A DNA stretch of 64,000 nt, from positions 1 through 64,000 of the forward strand of contig CANRLR010000008.1 in NCBI GenBank assembly GCA_947631505.1. Direction: 5' to 3'. The translations under genes were made by a program, and so were the position numbers. This DNA comes from an uncultured Lachnospiraceae bacterium (GTDB lineage: Bacteria > Bacillota > Clostridia > Lachnospirales > Lachnospiraceae). Shown here one piece after another: positions 7,630 through 58,660 of the stretch. Under the pieces are notes generated by a model. That model did no database searches. It had not been told where the DNA came from and saw only the letters and a list, made by a program, of their open reading frames with translations. Position 1 is the first letter of the stretch. Every line of letters begins with the position of its first letter.

Positions 7630-9753
7630 TTATTTATATAAATGCACCGCTACAGCATTCATATTCTCTGTTGGTCTATAGACCAGCTTACCTCTTTCAT
7701 TTGCATTGTTCCGAAAGAAGGTTACCGTTGGGGCATCATAGGAATAAACGCTCCTGATATTCTGTCCGCATTCCTCCGGCAGATCAATCTCAATTTGCGG
7801 TGGCAGTTCTCCATGGAAACAATGAATGAGAACAAGTGCTTCCCCGTCTTCTTTTACACGTGTTATCACCTGATATCCCTCGGGATAGCGATCACTGACA
7901 ATCGCCGGACTTTGATGATAAGTTCTGCCATCTTTAATAATGGAGGCAACTTCTCTATAAAAAGCAATTCCCCGATTGATAACGTCCCACTGGTCATCGG
8001 TCAGTTCTGTCACATCACCGGACAGACACATGCGGCCAAGCATCGTATTGGCAATCGAATAGCCAATGCGTTTTAAGGAGTCGGTCTTGCGGATAACCGC
8101 CCATATCTGGCTCTGCCGCGGCAGAATTGCCCGGTGCAGATTTGCCGCCACAATTGGGATTTCCTCCGTCTCATGAGCATCAGAAAAAGATGCCATAGAA
8201 CAAATGCTCATCATCAGCGGTTCCAGTTTATGTCCACCGGAAGCACAGTTTTCCAAAATAATGCCCGGCACCTCTTTCTTCACTCTGCGGACAAAATCAA
8301 CAGATGCTTCCATATTGGAACGAAGCCCCTCTCCCAGAGACTCTTTCCCATCACAACCAATACCAATTGTATCGTTATAGTCCATTTTCATATACTCAAA
8401 TCCATATTTTTTCAGTGTGCCGATTACCTTTTCTCCTAAATAATTCTGTACCCATGAATCATTCATATCCCAGAAACGACGACTGTAAGTGGATAGTACA
8501 TGGCCATCCCGTTTCAGTAAATGCTCCTCTTCCTGATAAGCCTTTGCTGCACTTCCCACATTATCAATTTCAAACCAAATTCCCGGTTTCAGACCATTTT
8601 CACGAATTTTATCCACCGTCTTTTGTAATCCCTCCGGGAACAAGCTCGACGACACATTATAGTCCCCCATGCTGATATCCCAAGGTACCCCATCCTCTTT
8701 GAACCAGCCACAGTCAATAACAAAATAATCAAAGCCCTTCCCCTGAATAGCCTCCAAAATACCACTGATATTTTCATCCGAAGGACATCCCCATGTTGTG
8801 CAGTATTCGTTAAATACAATCGGTAGATCCTGCTCACATTCCGGCCCCGCATTCACAAATTTCCTGCCGGCAGACACCAGCCGGTGACATAAATAATCAA
8901 TATCTCCCTCACATACGGTCAGAATCGCCTTTGGCGTTTCAAAGGATTCCCCTGCAGACACATCCTTCATCCAATGTCCAAATTCACGGTCAGCAAGTCC
9001 CCCCGAAATATGCAGCCCATCATCCTGACGATATACTTCCATCTGCCAGGATGCTTCATGAGCAAGCTGCACTCCCCATAATACATGATTTCTGGAGTCT
9101 TCTACCGATACAAAAGGAAAATACTTCATGACCGGCATAGAACCTCTCTGCCCAAAACGTTCCACCCCTACCGACCAGTTCGACCAGCTTGGCTCTAACT
9201 GCAGATCTTCTACTTTCTCTGTCACCAGCCGCCCCTCATGGCTCCATTTACTGCGCAGCCGGTGAACGAGTAATGCATCTGTACCAATACCCTCCAAAAA
9301 CGGGGAAATATTTCCCATCTCAAAAGAAGACAACATTTCTAATGTCACTTTTTCCGAGCTGTTATTTGAGAAAATATTCTTCATTTCAAAGCTGTCTTCC
9401 CCCCAATAATAAGTAATGACATTTTCCAGTGTATAGCCTCTCTTATCCTTAAAATAGGTATGTATTTCCTGGCCAAATTCAGTATCGGCAATTTCCTGTG
9501 AATCATATTCCATAAGATTTGCCGACTCGCAATTATGCATTGTCTGCCCATGACCATAGCAATTAGGATACATATCACCAACCAGCTTTAACTGTGCCAG
9601 ACTATTAATCCGGTAAAATTTCTGATCGCAAACAGTCTTATCCTGCAATGCAGCAGGAATCAGATAAAATCCGACCCGGTTAAAATCCGTTTCACGCTCA
9701 AATACCAAGGTCATATCTCCCAATGTATAAGATGAAATTCGTTCTATTGCCAT
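7630..9753 (-). CDS. Alpha-galactosidase, glycoside hydrolase family 36
   Basis: 707 residues from the chosen start MAIERISSYT, which follows AAAAGGAGAG; the frame extends 16 codons upstream without a good site. The N-terminal beta-sandwich precedes a (beta/alpha)8 barrel. The catalytic nucleophile is the Asp of YMKMDYND (about residue 458) and the acid/base the Asp of SFSDAHE (about 525). Other clan-D marks are FDYFVIDCGWF and LKPGIWFEIDNV. It removes terminal alpha-galactose from raffinose-type sugars or galactomannan side chains. No signal peptide, so it acts inside the cell on imported oligosaccharides. No transporter or regulator is adjacent. Confidence 0.93.
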   Translation of the reverse strand: MAIERISSYTLGDMTLVFERETDFNRVGFYLIPAALQDKTVCDQKFYRINSLAQLKLVGDMYPNCYGHGQTMHNCESANLMEYDSQEIADTEFGQEIHTYFKDKRGYTLENVITYYWGEDSFEMKNIFSNNSSEKVTLEMLSSFEMGNISPFLEGIGTDALLVHRLRSKWSHEGRLVTEKVEDLQLEPSWSNWSVGVERFGQRGSMPVMKYFPFVSVEDSRNHVLWGVQLAHEASWQMEVYRQDDGLHISGGLADREFGHWMKDVSAGESFETPKAILTVCEGDIDYLCHRLVSAGRKFVNAGPECEQDLPIVFNEYCTTWGCPSDENISGILEAIQGKGFDYFVIDCGWFKEDGVPWDISMGDYNVSSSLFPEGLQKTVDKIRENGLKPGIWFEIDNVGSAAKAYQEEEHLLKRDGHVLSTYSRRFWDMNDSWVQNYLGEKVIGTLKKYGFEYMKMDYNDTIGIGCDGKESLGEGLRSNMEASVDFVRRVKKEVPGIILENCASGGHKLEPLMMSICSMASFSDAHETEEIPIVAANLHRAILPRQSQIWAVIRKTDSLKRIGYSIANTMLGRMCLSGDVTELTDDQWDVINRGIAFYREVASIIKDGRTYHQSPAIVSDRYPEGYQVITRVKEDGEALVLIHCFHGELPPQIEIDLPEECGQNIRSVYSYDAPTVTFFRNNANERGKLVYRPTENMNAVAVHLYK

Positions 9754-9946
9754 TTGTCCGCTCTCCTTTTCCAAATGATATTTATATAGATACTTTATCA
9801 TAAATCAAAACAATTGCCAAGGTTCACTACCATTGATTTTCCGGGGAAATATCACGACATTATCCAAACTTTTTCATACATTAGCGATATATCTCCATTT
9901 CTTGATTCTCATTTGTTATTCTCTCGTTTAAGAGGAGGAATTCCAT

Positions 9947-10513
9947 ATGAAAGAGCAATTATATTCCATTCTGTCTGAAAAATATAGTGATTATGAAATT
10001 GCTAAGATACGTTACGCAGTCATCTGTGTTCTATCAGAAAGCAGTAAATTTCTTTTTATGCTACTTATTTTTTCCCTCATGGGCAGAACAAAAGAATTCT
10101 TAGTTGCTCTCATTGTTCTGTTGTCAATCCGTAACTTTACCGGCGGAATACATCTGAATCACTACATAAGCTGTCTCTGCTTTTCAATCGGATTTCTTGC
10201 TTTGATTTTTTTGTTTGCTTCGGCATTTCGTATCCCCGAGCCGATGCAGGCATTAGTTATGGAGATTGGGATAGTGTTAGTGTATTGGATTGAGCCTATT
10301 TCATCCGACCGCCGGCCGGAGCCATCCAAGAAACAGAAATTCAACTATAAAATAATTGCTTGTTTCGTCCTCCTCTTTTATATCTGTTTATTTTTGTTTA
10401 CTGAAAAGCTGCCCTATCAGAATCTAATCTTTTGGGTAATCTTTTTTCAGATAATGCAGCTCTGTACTGCTAAAATTATTAAAGTAAGGAGGAAACGTCA
10501 TGAAACACTTTAA
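9947..10513 (+). CDS. agrB: AgrB-type peptide-processing membrane protease
   Basis: 188 residues with about four to six hydrophobic segments. The AgrB signature is RNFTGGIHLNHYISC: His69 and Cys76 have the same seven-residue spacing as the catalytic His/Cys pair of staphylococcal AgrB. It should cut the AgrD precursor after the ring residues and close the ring at the inner face of the membrane. The start follows AAGAGGAGG. The stop overlaps the agrD start by 14 bases, so translation is probably coupled. Directly downstream lies agrD; the cognate receptor genes face it on the other strand. Confidence 0.93.
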   Translation: MKEQLYSILSEKYSDYEIAKIRYAVICVLSESSKFLFMLLIFSLMGRTKEFLVALIVLLSIRNFTGGIHLNHYISCLCFSIGFLALIFLFASAFRIPEPMQALVMEIGIVLVYWIEPISSDRRPEPSKKQKFNYKIIACFVLLFYICLFLFTEKLPYQNLIFWVIFFQIMQLCTAKIIKVRRKRHETL

Positions 10514-10628
10514 CAGAACATCTTTGTATACGATCTGCAGCTTGGCATTGGCATTGTCCGGATTGATTCATTTTAAAGGACCTAGTTTTTTGCTCTTTGG
10601 CGAGCCTGAATTTCCAGTTGAAAAATAA
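10500..10628 (+). CDS. agrD: AgrD-like cyclic autoinducer precursor (42 aa)
   Basis: A short gene with a perfect AAGGAGG seven bases before the ATG. The product has the AgrD layout. An amphipathic N-terminal helix (residues 1-25) is followed by a putative ring segment SFLLF (29-33) and the acidic tail GEPEFPVEK that AgrB proteins recognise (compare DEVEVP and GEPEMP tails). The ring-closing residue five from the cut site is Ser29, not Cys. The only Cys is at position 13 in the helix. The mature signal would thus be a serine lactone with two hydrophobic residues at its end. Size, position and tail make the call firm; the exact mature peptide is inferred. Confidence 0.85.
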   Translation: MKHFNRTSLYTICSLALALSGLIHFKGPSFLLFGEPEFPVEK

Positions 10629-10635
10629 TGGATAG

Positions 10636-10690
10636 AAAAAAAGATGGTATTTCCGAAAGCATATTTGCAGAAGGAATACCATCTTTTTTA
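10636..10690. terminator. Bidirectional terminator between agrD and agrC
   Basis: AAAAAAGATGGTATT pairs with AATACCATCTTTTTT around a 20-base loop, giving T runs in both directions. It separates the convergent agrBD and xre-agrA-agrC transcripts. The agrC stop codon lies inside the last bases. Confidence 0.85.
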
Positions 10691-11980
10691 TATCGTTTCA
10701 AATTCAATAGCAATAGAGAAAAAATTTTTTCCATTCTCCATTTTATTTTTCACTATAATATTTCCATTAAAACGCAGAACAATTTTTCTCAGTTCCGATA
10801 AGCCCAATCCACGGTTCGCTCCCTTTTCTGAGTACCCACGTTCAAAAAATTTCCGCCACTGTGACATAGGGATTCTTGAATGTGCATTACCTACTTCAAT
10901 ACAGATTCCTGTCTCACATTTTCTTCCATCTTGTTCTCTATCATACTCTTTAATGTGAAAATACATCTCACGATTTTCACACTGCCCCTCTAATGCCTCC
11001 ATCGCATTATCCAGTAAAGTACCAATAATATTAACCAGCTGAATGTCTGGTATTTGCAATCCATCCAAGCTGCAAGAAAAATCTGTCTGCAAATTAATAT
11101 TAAGTTCCAATATCTCATTTATTTTTTGGTAAACATGTGCGATAACAATCGGATTATTTAAAATTATGACACCATTTGGTAATAACGTCTTTTTTAGAAC
11201 CCCCACTTGCTCCTGCTGTTTTTCTACTAATTCATCATAGGTTGTATACAGATTATGCATTGCATATATTGCGTCAATCTGATTTGAGAACTTATGCTGC
11301 TGTCCCCTTATTTGTTCCAGCACATCTACATAACGGGCAGAATATTCCTTATGTAACCTTTTTTCTATCCGGTCATGATTTAATTTCGTAACAGAAAGAA
11401 CAATCACTAACAGACAACAGGCACTATAAAAATATTCTGTAATTGAGATGGTTTCTTTTTGATGAAAATAGAAAACGGTATAAAGAACAACGATTCCCAC
11501 AATCAAAAATAGTACAACTGCATAGGATTCGATTCGCTCCCCATACTTATGTCGATTTTCTGCAGGTAGTTTTCTCATTCCGATAAAGATAATAAAAAAG
11601 GTTATCAAAACAATACACAGGGAAAATATCTTCTCCGAAACAAGATTTTGAAACAGTAAGCATGGTGCACATACCAGTATTTCTACCACGCTGGGAACGA
11701 TTAACGACATGATAGAAAATATAATTCCTTTGATAATTCTTGTTTTATACTGCCAAAATGTGTATCCGGCAACAACAATATACGGTAAAACGGAAAAGGG
11801 CAATATTTCACCATAGATCACAAGAAAAATTCTTACCACCAACTCGGCCGCATAAAACAGTACCACCTTGTACTTCTTAAATGCAACATCCGTTCCGCAA
11901 AGAAAATGCAGGACACAAAGTGCACATGCCATTTCAATGGCACTATTTACATAGACAATCAGCTGGTCTGCCCAAAACAT
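10688..11980 (-). CDS. agrC: AgrC-like sensor histidine kinase (GHKL type)
   Basis: 430 residues. The N-terminal 200 residues form about six membrane helices, as in peptide-sensing AgrC receptors. The phosphoacceptor His229 is in IRGQQHKFSNQID. The ATPase domain shows the N box IIGTLLDNAMEAL and the G box GANRGLGLSELRKIV. It should bind the cyclic peptide made by the neighbouring agrBD and phosphorylate the response regulator encoded just upstream. It overlaps that gene by 22 bases, so the two are co-translated. Specificity for this particular peptide is inferred from adjacency. Confidence 0.92.
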   Translation of the reverse strand: MFWADQLIVYVNSAIEMACALCVLHFLCGTDVAFKKYKVVLFYAAELVVRIFLVIYGEILPFSVLPYIVVAGYTFWQYKTRIIKGIIFSIMSLIVPSVVEILVCAPCLLFQNLVSEKIFSLCIVLITFFIIFIGMRKLPAENRHKYGERIESYAVVLFLIVGIVVLYTVFYFHQKETISITEYFYSACCLLVIVLSVTKLNHDRIEKRLHKEYSARYVDVLEQIRGQQHKFSNQIDAIYAMHNLYTTYDELVEKQQEQVGVLKKTLLPNGVIILNNPIVIAHVYQKINEILELNINLQTDFSCSLDGLQIPDIQLVNIIGTLLDNAMEALEGQCENREMYFHIKEYDREQDGRKCETGICIEVGNAHSRIPMSQWRKFFERGYSEKGANRGLGLSELRKIVLRFNGNIIVKNKMENGKNFFSIAIEFETI

Positions 11981-12720
11981 CGTTCAAAATCCTCTCTAAA
12001 CTGTTTCTTCAATCTCCCACCGATGTCTATCACATCATCCGTTCCTTGTAAATACACTTTATTTCCGGGAAAATCCACAGAACGAATAAATTTCTTGTTC
12101 ACAGCAGTTCCCTTCAGTGGTTCAAGAAAAACATTATCACGGACCCGTTCTAAAAATGCCCTCATTGACAAATTAGGGATTTCAATATTTTCCGTTGTTG
12201 TATGTATATTCAATACACCTCTTCGGCTTACGATATAACACACTTCATCAATAACGATGGGAAATGTTATTCCCTCATACCGAAGTAAAATAGTCTCCGG
12301 CTCTTTGATTCGTTTTTCTGAGACCAGCATATCTAAAGCAGCCACCACATGACGGCGTACAATTGTATAATCGACTGGTTTCTCTATATAATCAAAACAG
12401 TGCAGCACTTTTAAAAGTGGCTCTGCCAACCCCGCCAGACTGGTAATCACAATAATAGGCACAGACTTATACCGTTTAACATCCCGTATATCCTGTGCAA
12501 ATTTAAAACCAGAACTGTCATTTCTTATTTTGGGTTCTAAAATAATATCTACAAGAAATAAATCTATATTGTTATCCATTGCACATAAATAGGCAGCGGC
12601 ACGATTATCAAAATCATATACCGTTATGTTTTTCATACAGGATTTTACCACTTTAATGAGAGATTGACGACAGATTTCATTATCTTCTAATATTAGAACT
12701 TTCATAATTATAACTTTCAA
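11959..12720 (-). CDS. agrA: AgrA-like response regulator with LytTR DNA-binding domain
   Basis: About 250 residues: an N-terminal receiver (VLILEDN, phospho-Asp in DLFLVDIIL, conserved Lys in YIEKPVDY) and a C-terminal LytTR domain (EVCYIVSRRGVLNIHT...FLERVRDNVFLEPLKGTAVNKKFI). It should activate agr promoters and target genes once phosphorylated by the AgrC-like kinase. The frame begins with TTG inside the TTGA overlap with the preceding xre gene; an ATG five codons later (12705) is an alternative start. Neither has a strong ribosome-binding site, which points to coupled translation. Confidence 0.9.
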   Translation of the reverse strand: MKVIIMKVLILEDNEICRQSLIKVVKSCMKNITVYDFDNRAAAYLCAMDNNIDLFLVDIILEPKIRNDSSGFKFAQDIRDVKRYKSVPIIVITSLAGLAEPLLKVLHCFDYIEKPVDYTIVRRHVVAALDMLVSEKRIKEPETILLRYEGITFPIVIDEVCYIVSRRGVLNIHTTTENIEIPNLSMRAFLERVRDNVFLEPLKGTAVNKKFIRSVDFPGNKVYLQGTDDVIDIGGRLKKQFREDFERCFGQTS

Positions 12721-13058
12721 TTATCACGAGAACTCATTGATTTTGCCAGATTCATAATAATTTCCCTATTCTTTTTATCCATCTGTGAAAAACAATATAA
12801 CAATTCTCTAACTTCTGCTTTATTGGTATCTACTATTTGTAATTCCTCGATTGTAAGGTCAACCCGAATATCACTAAGACCCAGCAGATAATCCGTTGTC
12901 ACGCCAAAATAGTCTGCATATCTTAATAATAAATCAATTCCAAAAGAAGCATTTTCTTTCTCTACTTTGCTTATTCTCTGTTGATTCGTACCAAGACAAA
13001 AAGCCAGCTCTTCTTGGCTTAAATTTTTCTCTTTTCGCAAATCCCTTAGTCTTCCCAT
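12717..13058 (-). CDS. XRE-family transcriptional regulator of the agr operon
   Basis: 113 residues from MGRLRDLRKEKNLSQEELA. The helix-turn-helix is residues about 8-60 (LSQEELAFCLGTNQQRISKVEKE, ending YLLGLSDI); the C-terminal part is a short helical tail. The start follows GTGAGG; the frame is open 18 codons further but with no site. It is the first gene of the agrA-agrC operon. It very likely binds the long inverted repeat overlapping its own promoter (13093-13153). A dedicated repressor heading an agr operon is not part of the staphylococcal locus. Confidence 0.88.
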   Translation of the reverse strand: MGRLRDLRKEKNLSQEELAFCLGTNQQRISKVEKENASFGIDLLLRYADYFGVTTDYLLGLSDIRVDLTIEELQIVDTNKAEVRELLYCFSQMDKKNREIIMNLAKSMSSRDN

Positions 13059-13092
13059 GAATAAAACCTCACACTCTCGCAATGTTGTTATC

Positions 13093-13153
13093 ATTATAAA
13101 GCGTAAAAACACTTTAATCTATCATGCAAATAAGTATTTACGCATTATAAATG
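13093..13153 (-). promoter_or_regulatory. Inverted-repeat operator and promoter of the xre-agrA-agrC operon
   Basis: Two arms of about 18 bases, TTATAAAGCGTAAAAAC and GTATTTACGCATTATAA, face each other around about 20 bases. The gene-proximal arm contains TATAAT (13093-13098), a plausible -10 box; the -35 (TAGATT) is weak. A repressor on both arms would cover the promoter. From here to 13244 I see nothing else. Confidence 0.6.
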
Positions 13154-13244: not shown

Positions 13245-14318
13245 CTAGTTCTCACTCATTTTTGCCAGCTTTGCAGCCTGGTCAGCGGCTATCAAACTAT
13301 CCAGCACCTCATTTAAATCCCCATCCATAACGGTATCCAGCTTATGCAGTGTTAATTTAATGCGGTGGTCTGTCACCCTTCCCTGCGGATAGTTATAGGT
13401 ACGAATTTTCTCAGAACGGTCACCCGTACCGATCTGGCTTCTTCTCGCTTCTGCTTCTGCATCATGGGCTTTCGCACATTCCAGCTCATACAGACGGGCA
13501 CGGAGTACCTTTAATGCCTTATCCTTATTTTTTAACTGGGACTTCTCATCCTGACAGGAAATAACAATTCCTGTCGGAATATGCGTAAGACGTACAGCAG
13601 AATCGGTTGTGTTGACACACTGTCCACCATTGCCGGATGCACGGAACACATCAAACTTACAATCATTCATATCCAGCTCCACTTCTACTTCTTCTACTTC
13701 CGGCATGATCGCCACGGTTGCTGTTGAAGTATGGATACGTCCACCGGACTCGGTCGCCGGAATTCGCTGTACACGGTGAACACCGCTCTCATATTTCAAT
13801 TTAGAATACGCTCCCAGACCATTTATCATAAAAACAATTTCTTTAAATCCACCGATTCCGTTTTCATTCGAGTTCATCGTATCAACCTTCCAGCGGTTAC
13901 TCTCGGCAAATCTGCAATACATGCGATATAAATCCGCCGCAAAGAGAGCAGCCTCATCTCCACCGGCACCGGCACGGATTTCTACAATGACATTCTTATC
14001 ATCATTCGGATCTTTCGGCAAAAGCAAAATTCTTAACTCATTTTCAATATTCTCAATATTTGCTTTGCACTCATTTAACTCCTCTTTCGCAAGCTCACGG
14101 AGTTCTTCATCCGTCTCCTCCTCCAGCATGGCAAGACTGTCCTCAATCCCCGCCTTTGTCACCTTATATTCCTTATATTTCGTCACAACCGGCTCTAAAT
14201 CTGCCTGTTCTTTCATCAGCTTTTGATATCTTACCTGATTATTCAATACATCCGGTTCACTTAATTCATTCAATACCTCTTCATAGCGGAGAAGAGTATC
14301 CTCTAACTTATCAAACAT
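13245..14318 (-). CDS. prfA: Peptide chain release factor 1
   Basis: 357 residues, normal for RF1. It recognises UAA/UAG and triggers peptide release. The stop-codon tripeptide is PAT in [20 protein letters not shown]; the catalytic GGQ is in [16 protein letters not shown]. Cys replaces the usual His after GGQ, a variant common in Clostridia. Upstream prmC, which methylates this Gln, is 49 bases away on the same strand and surely co-transcribed. Confidence 0.97.
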
Positions 14319-46380: not shown

Positions 46381-49300
46381 TTACTTGATTTCTTTCTCTG
46401 TTATATCCTTGTTACGATTTAACAAATCATAAATACATGGTACCACAAATAACGTCAGAAGTGTACCATATATCAATCCACCGATAGTTACAATCGCCAT
46501 TGGACGGGTCATATCCGTTCCCATACTCTTTCCCACAACCATCGGAATCAAACCAAGAATGGTTGTTACTGCTGTCATAAGAATCGGTCGGAGACGAGTT
46601 CTTCCTGCCTCTACAATCGCTTCCTTTTTCTCTGTTCCAACACGCCTCAGCTGATTGATATAGTCAACTAATACAATACCGTTATTTACAATAATACCTG
46701 CGAGCATAACAAATCCAATCATCGCAATTACACTGACATCACTGCCAGTTACCCAAAGTCCTAAAAATCCCCCCGTAAAGGCAAGCGGAATCGTAAACAA
46801 AATGATAAACGGAGAAAGCAGGGACTGGAACTGTGCCACCATGATCAGGTACATCAATACAATACCAAGAAGCATCATTAACATAACCTGCCCCATTGCC
46901 TCCATCGTTGCCTCATTCTCACCATCTAATTCCACTTCATAACCGACAGGTGCTTTATAATCCGACAATGCTTTTTCCACCTTGCTGCTGACATCACTGA
47001 CAATATAACCATCTTCAATTGCTGCTGTCACAGATAAAAAGCGCATCTGACTTTCGTGCTGAATCGTATTCGGTGAATCTGCCGTTTTAAAATCTGCAAT
47101 TTTACTTAACTTCACTTTCTTCGTTTTTTGGGTAGAAGTATCGGTGTATTCAATCTTCATTTTCTTGATATCCGCCCGCGTCAGCTTCTCATCCGAAGAG
47201 TCACTGATATACACGCCCAAATCATCCGTATCCGTTGACAACGTAGAGGCAGAAGATGCATCTTTCAATTTTGCATAAATCTGCTGGTATACTTGGGCAA
47301 CTGTCAAAGAATATTTCATCGCCTTTGCTTTGTCTACCGAAATGCGGAATTCTTCTCCCGCATCCTCAAGGCCATTTGAAATCTCTGTCAGTCCATCGAC
47401 GTCTTCCAGCCGTTTCATAATATCTTCTGAAACAGTTTGTAATTTATCTAAGTCCTTACCTCTAATATTAATTTTCACACCGGAACCAGTCAGAGAACTC
47501 ATATCCATGGCAGAAGTATTTACCTCTACTTCACAATCCAGATCCCTTGTCTTATCTGTAATTTGCTGTTCCAATTCTTCATTGCTCAGCTGCCGGTCCT
47601 CATTCAGAATGATATACATCGTAACAGTGTCATTACTGCTGCCGCCAGTAAGCATTGACATCGAAGAACCGCTCCCGGTATAAGCTCCAACGGTTTCAAC
47701 GTCTTCGACTTCCCGTATCTTTTCAATTGCCGTATTAGAAATTTCCCGCACTTGTTCGAGTTCTTTATTTTCCGTTGTCAAAGTCACCGTCATCTGTGTA
47801 CTTTCCATCTCCGGCATCATAGACATACCATTTTTCATGGAAAGGAAAGCAAAAAGCAAAAGAAATACGACAGAGACAATCAACACAACCGGCTTGAACC
47901 GAAGTACCGCTTTCAAAGATTTCGCATATGCATTCTGTAATGCCGTAATCGCCTTGGAACTGCCCGCATTACTCTTTCTGCGAAGCAGTCCGGCAGACAT
48001 GGCCGGTACAAGTGTCAGAGCAATAACAAGACTGGCTCCCAATGTATATGCCAAGGTAAGGGCAAGGTCAACAAAAAGCTGTTTTGTAATACCCTCTGTA
48101 AAAATAATCGGGGCAAATACACAAATTGTTGTGAGGGTAGAAGCAATAATGGCTCCTCCCACCTGTTTGGCACCGTCTACTGCCGCCTGTCTGGTTGAAA
48201 CTCCCTCTCCTTTTAAACGATATATATTCTCAATTACAACGACCGAGTTATCCACTAACATTCCAACTCCCAATGCCAGTCCTGAAAGGGAAATAATATT
48301 TAATGTTACACCGCTAAAGTACATAGCAACAATCGCTCCCACAACGCTGAGCGGAATCGAACAGGCTACAATAATCGTTGGCCGGATATCGCGCAGGAAA
48401 ACCAGCAGAATCAAAATCGCCAAAATACCACCGACAATTAAATTCTGCACGACCGCATCCACAACAAGGTCGATATAAACCCCCTGATTCATAAGAATCG
48501 AAGAGTGGAAACCCTTTTCATTCTTTTCGAGTTCTGTCAGTTTCTCTTCCAATGCTCCGGTCACGTCACCGGTAGAATAACCGGATTGTTTCTGTAATGT
48601 CACAAGAACCGCTGCATTTCCGTTGACAACCGTGTAAATATCCTCCGCATTATCAGTCTGTGCTACATCTGCCACATCACCGAGAGTAATCGGATTCAAA
48701 CCATCCAATCCCATATCACAGATTACTAAATCACTTATATCCTCTACCGACTCTACTTTGTCACCGACCCGTACAAGATAAGATGCATCGTCCTCAGTCA
48801 CATAACCGGATGGCATATCAAAATTTTCTGCCTTCAGGATATTCTCTACCATTTCTTTTGTTATAAGTTTGCTGAGCTTGGAATTTTCTTTTGTCGTTTT
48901 TTTTGTATCTTTTAACTTTCCCTCTGCTTCAGTTAATTTTTCAGAGCCACTATTCATTTGTGCTTCTGCCACACTAATCTGAATACTGGAAAGAATCTTC
49001 TGTTTATTCAACTGCTCCAAAGCATCTGTCGTTGAAATCTGTCCCTTTTCCAGTTTCTTCTTGGCATCATTCAATTTCTTCAAGCCGCTGGTAATCTTCT
49101 TCTGTGCTGCCGTCACTTTCTTCTGATTCGCCTGCAAGGACTTCTCCTGTGTTTCCAATTGGGCAAGCCCTGACTGTGCAGAAGAAATCCCCTTATTTAC
49201 TTCGGCAATCTTACTTGGCAAGGTATCCTCTGTCATTCCCTGCTCTTTTAACTTCTCTCTGAGAACGGACAACTGTGCCTGTACAGAAGCAAGCGAAGTT

Positions 49301-50325
49301 TTCAGTTCTGCCGGGGCATTATCTCCCAGCGCTTCTATTTGGTTCTGCAAACTGGTTTCCTGCTTTTTCAGCTGTTCCAAGGATGTTCTCAATGTTTCGA
49401 GCTGTGTCTTTGTAGTATTTAAGGTTTTTAATGTCGCACTGACATTTGCCTTGTTCGCAGCAATTGCCGCCAATCCGTCTTTCACTTGTTTGGCAGAACT
49501 ATTTAGCGTTTTCTGCTGCTCCTTCACCTGAGCAATCTGCTCCTCCACCGTTTTCAGGCCATCCTTTATCTGGTCCGTCGCCTTATTTAATTTTGTTTCT
49601 CCCTTGGCAATCTTATCGGCAGCCTGATTCTTTTGGGAATTTAGTGTATCCTTGCCATCTTCTAACTTTTTCTTATTTTTATCCAGCTTCTTTTCCGCAT
49701 CCGAAAGCTTGCCATCAATCGCAGCCTGTACCTTTTCATTCATCCGGTCAATTTTATCCTGCTGGATAATAACATCTATTTTCTTCTCAACGGTTCCTGA
49801 TTCATTTACCGAAGCTACTCCATCAACACTTTCCAATTCCGGAATAATGTCCTGCTCCGCACGCTTGGTTACTTCTGTTGTCTCCGCATCTTCAAAATCC
49901 AGTGCTGCCACCATAATCGGCATCATATCCGGATTAATTTTCATAATCGTAGGGCTTCCGATCGTATCTTCCCACTGGGAAGTCGTCTGGTCAAGGCTTT
50001 CTCTCATGTCAACCGTTGTCGTCCCCATATCTGTTCCATCATTAAACTCCATAATAACAACAGACATATTGTTAATCGACATGGACTGCACCTTTTTTAC
50101 ATTATTTATACGTGACATCGCCTGCTCCACCGGCTCTGTCACTGCCCGTTCTACTTCTTCCGGGCTGGCTCCCGGATATGTAGTCATGACAATCGCATAG
50201 GGAAATTCCATACTTGGAAGGAAATCTGTACTCATATTCTGAAATGATAACACACCAAGCACAATGATTATAACAACTGCCACGAATACAGTGTACGGTC
50301 TTTTTACACTAAACTTTGGCAACAT
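46381..50325 (-). CDS. RND-family transporter with long coiled-coil insertion
   Basis: 1314 residues, about 270 longer than typical AcrB-type pumps. N-terminal VKRPYTVFVAVVIIIVLGVLSF, porter motif YPGASPEEVERAVTEPVEQAM, membrane block GVGMLVDNSVVVIENIYRLKGEG, and C-terminal ...GIIVNNGIVLVDYINQLRR define the HAE-type RND fold with 12 helices. Residues about 195-485, inserted in the first porter region, are almost pure heptad-rich coiled coil (KKLDKNKKKLEDGKD...). Gram-positive relatives lack an outer-membrane channel. Substrate unknown; lipids or peptides are as likely as drugs. The proton-relay Asp is in GMLVDNSVVVIEN. Confidence 0.93.
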   Translation of the reverse strand: MLPKFSVKRPYTVFVAVVIIIVLGVLSFQNMSTDFLPSMEFPYAIVMTTYPGASPEEVERAVTEPVEQAMSRINNVKKVQSMSINNMSVVIMEFNDGTDMGTTTVDMRESLDQTTSQWEDTIGSPTIMKINPDMMPIMVAALDFEDAETTEVTKRAEQDIIPELESVDGVASVNESGTVEKKIDVIIQQDKIDRMNEKVQAAIDGKLSDAEKKLDKNKKKLEDGKDTLNSQKNQAADKIAKGETKLNKATDQIKDGLKTVEEQIAQVKEQQKTLNSSAKQVKDGLAAIAANKANVSATLKTLNTTKTQLETLRTSLEQLKKQETSLQNQIEALGDNAPAELKTSLASVQAQLSVLREKLKEQGMTEDTLPSKIAEVNKGISSAQSGLAQLETQEKSLQANQKKVTAAQKKITSGLKKLNDAKKKLEKGQISTTDALEQLNKQKILSSIQISVAEAQMNSGSEKLTEAEGKLKDTKKTTKENSKLSKLITKEMVENILKAENFDMPSGYVTEDDASYLVRVGDKVESVEDISDLVICDMGLDGLNPITLGDVADVAQTDNAEDIYTVVNGNAAVLVTLQKQSGYSTGDVTGALEEKLTELEKNEKGFHSSILMNQGVYIDLVVDAVVQNLIVGGILAILILLVFLRDIRPTIIVACSIPLSVVGAIVAMYFSGVTLNIISLSGLALGVGMLVDNSVVVIENIYRLKGEGVSTRQAAVDGAKQVGGAIIASTLTTICVFAPIIFTEGITKQLFVDLALTLAYTLGASLVIALTLVPAMSAGLLRRKSNAGSSKAITALQNAYAKSLKAVLRFKPVVLIVSVVFLLLFAFLSMKNGMSMMPEMESTQMTVTLTTENKELEQVREISNTAIEKIREVEDVETVGAYTGSGSSMSMLTGGSSNDTVTMYIILNEDRQLSNEELEQQITDKTRDLDCEVEVNTSAMDMSSLTGSGVKINIRGKDLDKLQTVSEDIMKRLEDVDGLTEISNGLEDAGEEFRISVDKAKAMKYSLTVAQVYQQIYAKLKDASSASTLSTDTDDLGVYISDSSDEKLTRADIKKMKIEYTDTSTQKTKKVKLSKIADFKTADSPNTIQHESQMRFLSVTAAIEDGYIVSDVSSKVEKALSDYKAPVGYEVELDGENEATMEAMGQVMLMMLLGIVLMYLIMVAQFQSLLSPFIILFTIPLAFTGGFLGLWVTGSDVSVIAMIGFVMLAGIIVNNGIVLVDYINQLRRVGTEKKEAIVEAGRTRLRPILMTAVTTILGLIPMVVGKSMGTDMTRPMAIVTIGGLIYGTLLTLFVVPCIYDLLNRNKDITEKEIK

Positions 50326-55162: not shown

Positions 55163-58100
55163 TCAGTTATTTACTTTCACTTTCAATTTTGCTTTCTTTT
55201 TACCACATTTTACGGTAATCGTTGCTGTCCCTTTTTTCTTTGCTTTCGCCAAACCGTATTGGTCAACAGAAACAACACTTTTCTTTGAACTCTTATAGGT
55301 GACAGAATCCGTTGTTCTCTTTGTCATGGACTTAATCGCTACGGTATAAGTCTTTCCTTTCTTCAGGGTTTTTCTCTTTGCTTTCAAAGAAAGTTTTTTA
55401 TTTGGTTTTGCCTTTTTCGAAACTTTAACCGTAATCGTCGCTTTCTTTGTTTTGTCTGCAGCAGAAGTCACAGTAATTTTCGTAGTTCCAGCCTTTTTCG
55501 CTTTCACTGTCCCTTTGGCTGATACCGAAGCAACTGCTTTCTTTGAGGATACCCATGTCACAGCCTTACCAAAGCTTCCCATTCCTGTAACTACAGCAGC
55601 CAATTTCAATTTACCACCCTTTTTTAAGTATACCGTCTTTGTTCCCGCTTTTCGGTTTGCTGCTTTCACAGTCACCTTGGATATCTTAGGCTCATTTGAT
55701 GACGTTGTAGTAGTAGAATCATTCACACCATTGGACGAAGTATCCGGCTCTTTAGCGATTTCTTCTTTCTTATCCTCAGATTTTTCATTGTTAAAATCCG
55801 CCGGTCTTTCTTTCTCCATACTGTCCGGATTGGTTAAATCAAATGCCATATAATCTGATTTTACCACATTATAATTACCTGTTTTGGATGCCGAAGTAAG
55901 ATAAAGATAAGAGTCGTTCTTATCCATTTCATTTGCTACTACAGTATTCAGTCCGCTAGCTTTCAATTTGCTCTTATCGACAGAAACAGAAGCCTTGCCA
56001 TCTTTTACGTCCGCTGTCAGACAGGTTGTTCCATTCATCTGAAAACGAATCTTTGCCGCTTCACTGTTTTTTGTTTCTGCGGTAAATGTCACTTTATCCC
56101 CGTCAACTTTTCCTGACAAAAAAATGTCATCTGAAGTTTTATAATATCCCAAGGAATTTACCAAAGTTGAAACCGATGCAAATTGTTTATCCAGCCATTC
56201 CACTCTCTTATTCAAAAATGTCTGGATAGAAGCAACCGAATCCTCAAAATTCTGAGACGTCGCACCACTATATTCCGTGTTGTAGGTGTAGCACCATCTA
56301 ACATCATTCGCTGCACCGGCTTCTTTTAGATCGGTCTTATACTGGTCGATCAGCCCACCTTTTTTTATCATATTTTCGATTACCGGGCGGATTTTATGAT
56401 ATTTTTCATAAGCTAAGGTAAGGAAATAGGGATCACGAATCAACATACGGTTCCACTGAACGGTCTGATAATACTGCTCCTCTGTGAATTTATCGATTGT
56501 CGTCTGCCAGCTTGTCGGATAATTGGTATTGATATTAAACATATTCGTATTGCCCCAACACCAGTCAAAATCCCACTGCGGACCGAATTTAGCCAGTTCA
56601 CCAACATCTTTGTAGAAGAAAAAGCTGTTCTTCATACTATCCCAGTTCATCGCATATTCACAAAACAGAAAATTATTCACAAGGCTGTCCATATCGAACA
56701 ATTCACTGTAATGCTTGCCATCATTTACATGATCCGTATATGTGACCGCTGTATAGTGGGCGTCCTTCCACTGTTTTTCCCTGCTGCCTTCCTTGTCAGT
56801 GTAATATTTCTGGGTACCATTGTTAAAATAGAAATCATCACTATGCAGTGCATACTCAAAAGCTTGTGTATAGTTCTTTGCATATTCAAACAAGGATGTA
56901 CTCTTGAAACTATTCACAATTGCCCGTTTTTCTGCATCTGTTTCAGCATCCTCTCCCGGCTCGGGAGCACTGAAATACATTGGTTGTTTATAGTTTGTTG
57001 CAATACTTGCCAGTGTATTATCCCCAATACTGTAAAAGTCCATTTCAGCAAGAAAACCTCCCGTAGTATCCGGAAGCGTAATATCATAATCAGCAAAATC
57101 ATAAACATGAACCGGATTCTCATAATAACTGATATTGGTCAGATCACAATCCTCTCCCGTCAGATGCAATTTTAGCATTTCCGGAAAACCAAAATCATTT
57201 TGTGCACTGGCATCAAATACCGTTGTCTTCCCATTTGCCCCCGTAATGTCGCCATGCATCGTAATCCTATTTCCGATTCTTTTAATAGAGAGTTTCACAT
57301 CCGCATCGGCTAATATGTCCTTCCTCCTATCATTGCAGATATTACTAATATTTCCTTCCCACTTTGCTGCAGCATTCTCGCCATTATACCACCAAATATT
57401 GCCATTACACACCGCTGTTAAATAGTTGGCCTCATCCTGCGATGCAAGTTCTACAACAAAATTGTCATATTCCTGATTGGTCTTATATCCTTTATTGTGG
57501 AACTCAAAGGATAGACTGAAGTCTCCCGTCAAAGAAATCCAATCCGTTTTTGCTTCTGCAAAATTGCCGCAGGACAAATCTGGAATTGCTATTTTTTCTA
57601 CCTCATCAGAACCCGCTGCATCATAAGTCACTCTTTTCTCATCTATCCAGGAATAGTCCGAAGCCATAATGGTTTCTAATTCACTGATAAACTCTTTTCT
57701 TTTCGTCTTATCCCATCCATTTTCTTTTGCGACTGCTTTACCGATCGTATCTGCCGCATCCTCACCAATACCCGTCCAGTCAGTAATGTCAATCCGGCCC
57801 GGGTCCACACGGCGATGTTCACAGAGCTGATACACACCTTCATACTGTCCGTTATAAATCAGTGTTACATTCGTAGACTTAAAGTAAAATTCTGTACCGA
57901 TATCACCGGAAAAATCATACAGCAATTTATTGCGCAGCAAAGAGTGGTCAATATCATTGGCCAGCAAAACCCAATGTTTACTCGTATAGGACTTGGATGT
58001 TCCATCCTCATTCTGCTCGGCACCTAATCCCAGCAGATCTGCCTTTTCACTCAACTTAAGTTTAAAGGGACGCTTTGGACGGTAGGCAGTGGAATTCCCC

Positions 58101-58660
58101 CTCAGCTTGACCTGTCCGGTACCATCATACCAGTAATCCTCGTTCTGATAGGTATCATTTCCTACCAATTTGATGGAGGTATTCTCTTCCTCTGTATAAT
58201 CCTTTGTTACATCATAATAATTGGTTTCCGAGTTAATATAAATAACCGGAGTCTTACTACAGTAAATCGTAAGTTTGGTATCCCCAATTGCCCCATAGAT
58301 CACACTTTCCAAATACTCTTCCGTAATCTCCAGTGCCGGCTGCTGTACACTTTTCACTGTCTCATAGACAACCTTATTTCCATCTTGCCCGGAAACCACC
58401 TTCTTTACCGTCCATAAAACATTCTCCGTCACTTCTTCCGTTACGGCATCCTGCGTATGTAATACTTTCAACGTGTCTCCCGGTTTCACATAGGCATGAT
58501 CAAAGGAATAACCATCTGCCGACATTGCCGTCGTATTGTCGTTGATTTCCACCCCTTCCTCCACAGCAGCTGCTGCCCGCAGTGGAGATGGAATACCTGT
58601 TACTATAAGTGCCGCTGTGCAAAGAACACATAACACCTTTTTCACCATTTTTTTACACAT
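55163..58660 (-). CDS. Large secreted CotH-kinase-type protein with Big_2 repeats
   Basis: 1165 residues. Signal peptide cut near RAAAA (28-32). CotH-like pseudokinase blocks: QVKLRGNSTAYRPKRPFKLK (183-202), NDIDHSLLRNKLLYDF (235-250), VTLIYNGQYEGVYQLCEHR (265-283), and the metal-binding Asp motif GPQWDFDWCWGN (693-704). Between about 358 and 520 an extra beta-rich, concanavalin-like domain (DFSLSFEFHNKGYKTNQEYD...) interrupts the kinase. The C-terminal 180 residues hold two Big_2-like domains (VTWVSSKKAVASVSAKGTVK) for wall binding. Spore CotH phosphorylates coat proteins; this surface version may act on wall or host glycoproteins. Confidence 0.85.
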   Translation of the reverse strand: MCKKMVKKVLCVLCTAALIVTGIPSPLRAAAAVEEGVEINDNTTAMSADGYSFDHAYVKPGDTLKVLHTQDAVTEEVTENVLWTVKKVVSGQDGNKVVYETVKSVQQPALEITEEYLESVIYGAIGDTKLTIYCSKTPVIYINSETNYYDVTKDYTEEENTSIKLVGNDTYQNEDYWYDGTGQVKLRGNSTAYRPKRPFKLKLSEKADLLGLGAEQNEDGTSKSYTSKHWVLLANDIDHSLLRNKLLYDFSGDIGTEFYFKSTNVTLIYNGQYEGVYQLCEHRRVDPGRIDITDWTGIGEDAADTIGKAVAKENGWDKTKRKEFISELETIMASDYSWIDEKRVTYDAAGSDEVEKIAIPDLSCGNFAEAKTDWISLTGDFSLSFEFHNKGYKTNQEYDNFVVELASQDEANYLTAVCNGNIWWYNGENAAAKWEGNISNICNDRRKDILADADVKLSIKRIGNRITMHGDITGANGKTTVFDASAQNDFGFPEMLKLHLTGEDCDLTNISYYENPVHVYDFADYDITLPDTTGGFLAEMDFYSIGDNTLASIATNYKQPMYFSAPEPGEDAETDAEKRAIVNSFKSTSLFEYAKNYTQAFEYALHSDDFYFNNGTQKYYTDKEGSREKQWKDAHYTAVTYTDHVNDGKHYSELFDMDSLVNNFLFCEYAMNWDSMKNSFFFYKDVGELAKFGPQWDFDWCWGNTNMFNINTNYPTSWQTTIDKFTEEQYYQTVQWNRMLIRDPYFLTLAYEKYHKIRPVIENMIKKGGLIDQYKTDLKEAGAANDVRWCYTYNTEYSGATSQNFEDSVASIQTFLNKRVEWLDKQFASVSTLVNSLGYYKTSDDIFLSGKVDGDKVTFTAETKNSEAAKIRFQMNGTTCLTADVKDGKASVSVDKSKLKASGLNTVVANEMDKNDSYLYLTSASKTGNYNVVKSDYMAFDLTNPDSMEKERPADFNNEKSEDKKEEIAKEPDTSSNGVNDSTTTTSSNEPKISKVTVKAANRKAGTKTVYLKKGGKLKLAAVVTGMGSFGKAVTWVSSKKAVASVSAKGTVKAKKAGTTKITVTSAADKTKKATITVKVSKKAKPNKKLSLKAKRKTLKKGKTYTVAIKSMTKRTTDSVTYKSSKKSVVSVDQYGLAKAKKKGTATITVKCGKKKAKLKVKVNN

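Follow-up and report, generated by a model that had tools for sequence, protein, structure and literature searches.

A probable agr-type quorum-sensing system with a predicted SFLLF lactone signal and an XRE-headed receptor operon in a Roseburia-like Lachnospiraceae bacterium

The agr locus and its wiring

The DNA considered here is a window of 64,000 nucleotides (the whole stretch that was analyzed, positions 1 to 64,000 of contig CANRLR010000008.1 in assembly GCA_947631505.1) from an uncultured Lachnospiraceae bacterium, and its subject is an agr-type locus at positions 9,947 to 13,153. The contig (C8) belongs to a genome of 2.74 Mb in 49 contigs. At this locus, the genes for the membrane peptidase AgrB and for a short AgrD precursor with an acidic, proline-rich tail face a convergent operon that encodes an XRE regulator, a LytTR response regulator, and a GHKL histidine kinase, and all five reading frames are open and carry the expected domains (Table 1). 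We interpret the whole, with a probability of about three in four, as a complete quorum-sensing system of the agr type, by which a Roseburia-like bacterium signals through an SFLLF lactone and keeps the receptor operon under XRE control.

Staphylococcal agr consists of one agrBDCA operon with a divergent RNAIII. That layout is not the one found here, where agrBD faces the XRE-regulator-kinase operon and where an Rfam search of the window at the gathering score matched no RNA family and no known regulatory RNA. The initial annotation of this stretch had proposed a complete agr system with a convergent, XRE-headed receptor operon and a wiring unlike that of staphylococci. Gene coordinates, open frames, and domain matches bear out both the gene content and the orientation of the receptor operon. 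The difference in wiring holds as far as the convergent operons are concerned, but it is not peculiar to this locus, as it recurs in the genus and the family.

The genes differ in how they can be assigned. AgrB has a strong Pfam match, although no NCBIfam AgrB model scored above its cut-off and a comparison with PDB sequences (E up to 0.1) returned no solved relative. The AgrD sequence, MKHFNRTSLYTICSLALALSGLIHFKGPSFLLFGEPEFPVEK, matched no family in Pfam or NCBIfam at E 0.001, and it is therefore identified as AgrD by its position, its relatives, and its motif. The N-terminal half of the kinase is hydrophobic and polytopic as judged by hydropathy, and the protein reaches the NCBIfam model of staphylococcal AgrC at E 1.9e-8, yet with 34 bits, far under the cut-off of 500. 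The regulator and kinase genes overlap by 22 bases, and the regulator has an alternative TTG start at 12720.

Table 1. Features of the agr locus, with positions in the 64,000-nucleotide window
Feature	Positions	Strand	Basis
agrB, membrane peptidase	9947-10513	+	PF04647, E 5.1e-29; 101 bits (cut-off 23)
agrD, 42-residue signal precursor	10500-10628	+	Open reading frame, 14-base overlap with agrB; orthologues in relatives
Codons of the predicted ring Ser29-Phe-Leu-Leu-Phe33	10584-10598	+	Five places before Gly-Glu; Ser in 36/37 genus AgrD
AgrC-like histidine kinase	11980-10688	-	GHKL ATPase: PF14501, E 7.8e-8; PF02518, E 1.9e-7
LytTR response regulator, AgrA-like	about 12705-11959	-	PF00072, E 4.9e-8; PF04397, E 9.9e-6
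XRE (Cro/CI-type) regulator, first gene of the receptor operon	about 13058-12717	-	PF01381 (HTH_3), E 3.6e-12
Dyad at the XRE operon promoter, candidate operator	13094-13110 / 13134-13150	-	15 of 17 pairs, 23 bases between the arms
Inverted repeat with perfectly matching 15-base arms and runs of A and T	10637-10651 / 10675-10689		Between the convergent operons
TAGCGATATATC upstream of agrB, candidate regulatory element	9882-9893	+	Alike in most of eight aligned relatives

Serine and cysteine at the ring position

The ring residue was read blind, as any residue that precedes Gly-Glu by five places in the frames lying directly downstream from agrB; it was not preset in the script because the answer must not be chosen beforehand. 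The counts cover AgrD of the Gly-Glu type, other motifs lying outside the script. For the genus, all 41 AgrB matches were read and 37 AgrD accepted; for other genera of the family, the best 26 non-own AgrB matches (down to E 1.6e-20) gave 21 AgrD; and for other families of the class, 30 of 64 non-own matches gave 12. Four candidates (L155, L156, L134, and the second L154 match) were dropped by eye as not being AgrD. Many rows are near copies of one another, above all in the genus, such that neither the counts nor the codon comparison below rest on independent rows.

At the locus itself, Ser29 is encoded by AGT (10584-10586), and the sequence reads SFLLF followed by GEPEFP, which confirms the serine that the initial annotation had placed at the ring-closing position. 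Serine occupies this position in 36 genus AgrD and cysteine in one (L013), while the residue before Gly-Glu is Phe in 31 of the 37 and Trp in six. The second agr locus of the same genome (L002) likewise has a ring serine, in SLLFF. In other genera of the family, 15 Ser stand against 6 Cys, and in other families of the Clostridia, 8 against 4. Altogether 59 Ser and 11 Cys were read in 70 AgrD, with no third residue among those accepted; these are the two residues able to make an ester or a thioester ring. The earlier description of serine autoinducing peptides as rare is thus wrong for this lineage. It had also been proposed that cysteine in the homologues would betray a sequence error. Such an error was considered as the source of the serine and ruled out, since the genus and the second locus share it, and for the same reason the serine is no oddity of one strain.

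Two residues of the peptidase do not change along with the ring residue. His69 and Cys76 of AgrB, which we take to be the catalytic pair by analogy with staphylococcal AgrB, are invariant in all 69 aligned sequences. On a tree of these 69 rows (L161, an AgrB match with an internal stop, is counted among the 70 AgrD and lies outside the tree), the Ser/Cys label changes at least nine times, and at least five of these changes are forced by well-supported branches. The codons differ between groups: the ring serine is AGY in 49 of 51 Lachnospiraceae cases, serines inside agrB of those loci are 190 AGY to 497 TCN, and in other families the ring serine is TCN in six of eight. AGY is one base away from the cysteine codons TGY. 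This pattern would suit an origin of the Lachnospiraceae ring serine from cysteine by single changes and a separate history elsewhere, with near copies inflating the numbers.

A comparison set was formed by the best PF04647 matches in the family, of which 30 loci were inspected and 20 used for the XRE count given below. AgrD was recognised in only part of these loci, mostly upstream of agrB and with ends such as HQPK (by eye, uncounted), and its ring residue is mostly Cys, with Ser in a few rows (by eye, 30 loci). These loci look different and stand for another agr type. The present locus, first taken for a rarity, seems to be an ordinary representative of an agr branch rich in serine, in which an XRE partner is frequent within the family. 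As a separate observation, a stretch from another family (G514:C18, 373900-388916) holds four AgrB matches in 15 kb, three of them with an internal stop.

The XRE gene and its promoter dyad

XRE genes beside agr were sought with a profile made from 19 of the 29 HTH_3 matches of the genome itself (two agr-linked and eight weak matches were omitted), a profile that may lose sensitivity in other families. The loci examined were 21 from the genus (out of 41 matches), every family locus for which an AgrD had been accepted (21), 11 class loci out of 12, and 20 from the comparison set. In the genus, 18 of the 21 fetched stretches hold an XRE gene, and the other three (L033, L042, and L044) are cut by contig ends inside the kinase gene. 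Elsewhere in the family, loci with this type of agr have one in 14 of 21 cases, compared with 4 of 20 comparison loci, and in 10 of the 21 family loci the XRE, regulator, and kinase genes stand in line. Among the closest relatives, the order XRE-regulator-kinase, convergent on agrBD, is kept in five (L034-L038), while L032 is without most of the regulator and L033 is cut by a contig end.

XRE proteins of different loci fall in different subfamilies, and XRE may therefore have become linked to agr on more than one occasion. In L034, L035, L037, and L038, a further XRE gene, from a different subfamily, sits directly upstream. This GFSA-type gene is also seen at L040 (3632-4030) and L049 (3675-4004), sometimes divergent from agrB. 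In the second agr locus of the same genome (L049; G000:C40, 1-4004), which has the SLLFF ring, the regulator is divergent from agrBD, the kinase is convergent, and an XRE gene lies upstream of the kinase. Two relatives depart in their gene content. In L032/L114 (G016:C103; L114 8036-8512), about 29 last residues of the regulator match whereas XRE and kinase are kept, a loss that is possibly an assembly fault in a metagenome-assembled genome. In L034 (5159-6420; also L116), the kinase match is split over two frames.

The initial annotation had reported an inverted repeat over the XRE promoter. The repeat stands as the dyad of Table 1, and a detail is corrected: it is arm 13094-13110 that overlaps TATAAT (13098-13093), about 35 bases before the XRE start. 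A helix-turn-helix domain and an inverted repeat over the gene's own promoter, the combination expected of an autorepressing XRE regulator, are both present, and the position of the dyad suggests that XRE may repress this operon. Among 400 dinucleotide shuffles of the 200-base stretch, one reached at least 15 pairs. The half-sites of the window, GTAAATAC and GTTTTTAC, are 23 bases apart; the relatives L112 and L114-L117 have TAAATAC and GTATTTA at the same place, 24 bases apart, and all seven aligned rows share the TATAAT next to the second half-site. Because these relatives are close to each other, the conservation is modest evidence. That L114 retains XRE and the half-sites with almost no regulator speaks for XRE as the binder.

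A wider XRE regulon was considered and is not claimed. In the whole 2.74 Mb genome, a single place carries the half-site pair GTAAAWAC-N10-36-GTWTTTAC, and the reversed control pattern, no rarer, turns up twice per strand; the pattern alone is therefore no rarer than chance, and it is the position of the dyad that counts. A consensus promoter scan gave 14 sites against 15.1 expected and adds nothing.

Two other elements flank agrBD. The perfect repeat at 10637-10689 is a possible two-way terminator that would end both operons; the terminator scan, with a loop limit of 8 that is exceeded here, did not report it. Upstream of agrB, L114 and L115 depart from the element at 9882-9893 in the alignment. 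A gene for a melibiase-type glycosidase (7630-9801) adjoins the locus, and the open reading frame at 13245-14318 beside it is a putative prfA by reading of the frame. Elsewhere in the window are genes for a 1165-residue protein with CotH kinase and bacterial Ig-like domains (55163-58660) and for a 1314-residue AcrB-family (ACR_tran) transporter that exceeds the profile length (46381-50325).

Proposed signalling scheme, its alternatives and its relatives

In the scheme that we propose, AgrB would use Cys76 and His69 to cut AgrD after Phe33 and to transfer the acyl group onto the Ser29 side chain. The product would be the five-residue ester (lactone) ring SFLLF, and a second cut would release the peptide, tail included, for export. 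The AgrC-like kinase of the convergent operon would sense this peptide and phosphorylate the LytTR regulator, whose most likely effect is to activate agrBD. The most likely role of the XRE protein is to bind the dyad over its own promoter, and it would thereby determine how much kinase and regulator is available. In S. aureus, AgrB is responsible both for the first cut in AgrD and for thiolactone formation, and the second cut is due to MroQ (PMC10885120); by analogy, the same processing may take place here with Ser29 as the nucleophile.

Several observations weigh against parts of this scheme. The ring was placed by its motif in an AgrD that has no curated family match. L090 and L092, scored as Ser, have a Cys immediately before the counted Ser, and the dropped row L164 has a Cys six places before Gly-Glu; ring size may thus vary across AgrD. 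A conserved leader cysteine, 11-24 residues before the ring, is found in 51 of 70 AgrD; it accompanies ring Ser in 48 of 59 cases and ring Cys in 3 of 11. As for repeated switching, shuffled labels average 10.4 changes on the AgrB tree and 57 of 500 shuffles were as low as the real labels, so that the label is hardly clustered, and the tree has several long branches and parts that are unsure. An XRE gene is missing from 7 of 21 family loci and from all 11 loci of other families, and XRE is therefore not essential to this agr type. Among the family misses, L169 ends soon after agrB and L176 and L186 are also without kinase or regulator, while L181, L183, L187, and L199 keep both. Finally, a LytTR site upstream of agrB was sought by eye in the eight-row alignment and none could be named.

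Four other explanations were weighed. It is improbable that Ser29 does not close the ring and that the signal is linear or closed by another residue such as the leader Cys13 (codon 10536-10538). The frequency of leader cysteines favors that idea, but Cys13 is 16 residues before Ser29 and far from the Gly-Glu cut motif, and 19 of 70 AgrD have no leader cysteine. The ring position holds only Ser or Cys in the accepted AgrD, with some Cys among them, and a Ser-closed ring of equal size is proven in C. thermocellum (PMC5322536). More weight, although we still consider it doubtful, must be given to the possibility that the dyad at 13094-13150 is a site of the LytTR regulator or of another protein, that XRE acts elsewhere, and that the system activates its own receptor operon in place of autorepression by XRE. 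Receptor genes of agr systems are often under their own regulator, and half-sites 23-24 bases apart are wider than a simple XRE dimer site needs. However, LytTR sites are usually direct repeats, and L114 keeps XRE, TATAAT, and the half-sites with only its remnant of the regulator.

That the XRE gene is a chance neighbor or a piece of an unrelated module seems very improbable. XRE genes are common, as the 29 HTH_3 matches of this genome attest, and several subfamilies occur near these loci at differing positions; against this stand the frequencies in genus and family, which compare with 4 of 20 comparison loci and with 0 of 11 loci from other families, and the fact that XRE is the first gene of the regulator-kinase operon in the clade of the window and in the 10 family loci noted above. 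It is hardly credible that the agr locus is decayed or silent. The lost regulator of L114 and the split kinase frame of L034 are signs of decay in relatives, but the window has five open frames, and relatives whose AgrB is 47-52% identical retain the locus, with Ser in nearly all genus copies. We keep the lactone-forming, XRE-controlled system as the preferred reading.

The predicted chemistry has a clostridial precedent in C. thermocellum, where the S25-F29 cyclic pentapeptide with a Ser-to-Phe ester was confirmed by liquid chromatography with tandem mass spectrometry (PMC5322536). The ring predicted here from sequence is like that of Clo1313_2818 in having five residues closed from Ser to a C-terminal Phe. 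In C. thermocellum, however, agrD lies apart from an agr operon and the cited passages assign no AgrB, AgrC, or AgrA to it (PMC5322536), whereas all genes are together here. A serine lactone acting through agr, as predicted here, is also the autoinducer of the Staphylococcus intermedius group, and in S. pseudintermedius, which has a working agr with Ser, a Ser-to-Cys change lowered RNAIII expression (PMC3673130). Separate agrBD and agrCA operons are likewise a feature of Clostridium acetobutylicum agr, although its ring is six-membered and the cited passages mention no XRE head gene (PMC10301443).

Other accounts touch on the residue and on the stability of the ring. The central cysteine is swapped for serine in some cases (PMC4916163), and a Lachnospiraceae genome has been reported with cyclic lactone autoinducers in passages that do not name the residue (PMC11352710). 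For a synthetic lactone form of the Listeria peptide, 22 h at pH 7 and 37 C led to 36% hydrolysis and 48% rearrangement (PMC11297923). For the present signal, the peptide tail would decide whether such a rearrangement can occur. The gelatinase biosynthesis-activating pheromone of the Enterococcus faecalis fsr system is reportedly a peptide lactone; its ring is closed by Ser, the sensor is a kinase paired with a LytTR-type regulator, and the system is not known to have an XRE partner. Unlike the five-residue ring predicted here, its ring has nine residues (PMC4916163). Among the titles and abstracts listed from open-licence papers, we found neither serine-type AgrD across Lachnospiraceae nor XRE as an agr partner, a result that does not establish their absence.

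In Clostridia, thiolactones are the form more commonly reported (PMC5322536). We see an even chance that, in a large and little-studied clostridial agr branch with AgrD downstream of agrB and Gly-Glu after the ring, serine lactones are normal and Cys is exceptional, the two having been exchanged repeatedly beside one conserved AgrB, and that XRE is a standing fifth component, gained in Lachnospiraceae, that couples receptor supply to a further input. A published approach to finding such peptides reportedly uses native chemical ligation. This reaction needs a thioester, and serine esters should therefore escape such searches. Surveys of peptide signalling in the gut may thus have overlooked serine lactones if their use is widespread among gut Lachnospiraceae. 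Moreover, Ser/Cys switching under a conserved AgrB raises the testable question of how one enzyme would serve two nucleophiles and whether the receptor would tell an ester from a thioester, and the XRE partner offers a testable fifth component of agr.

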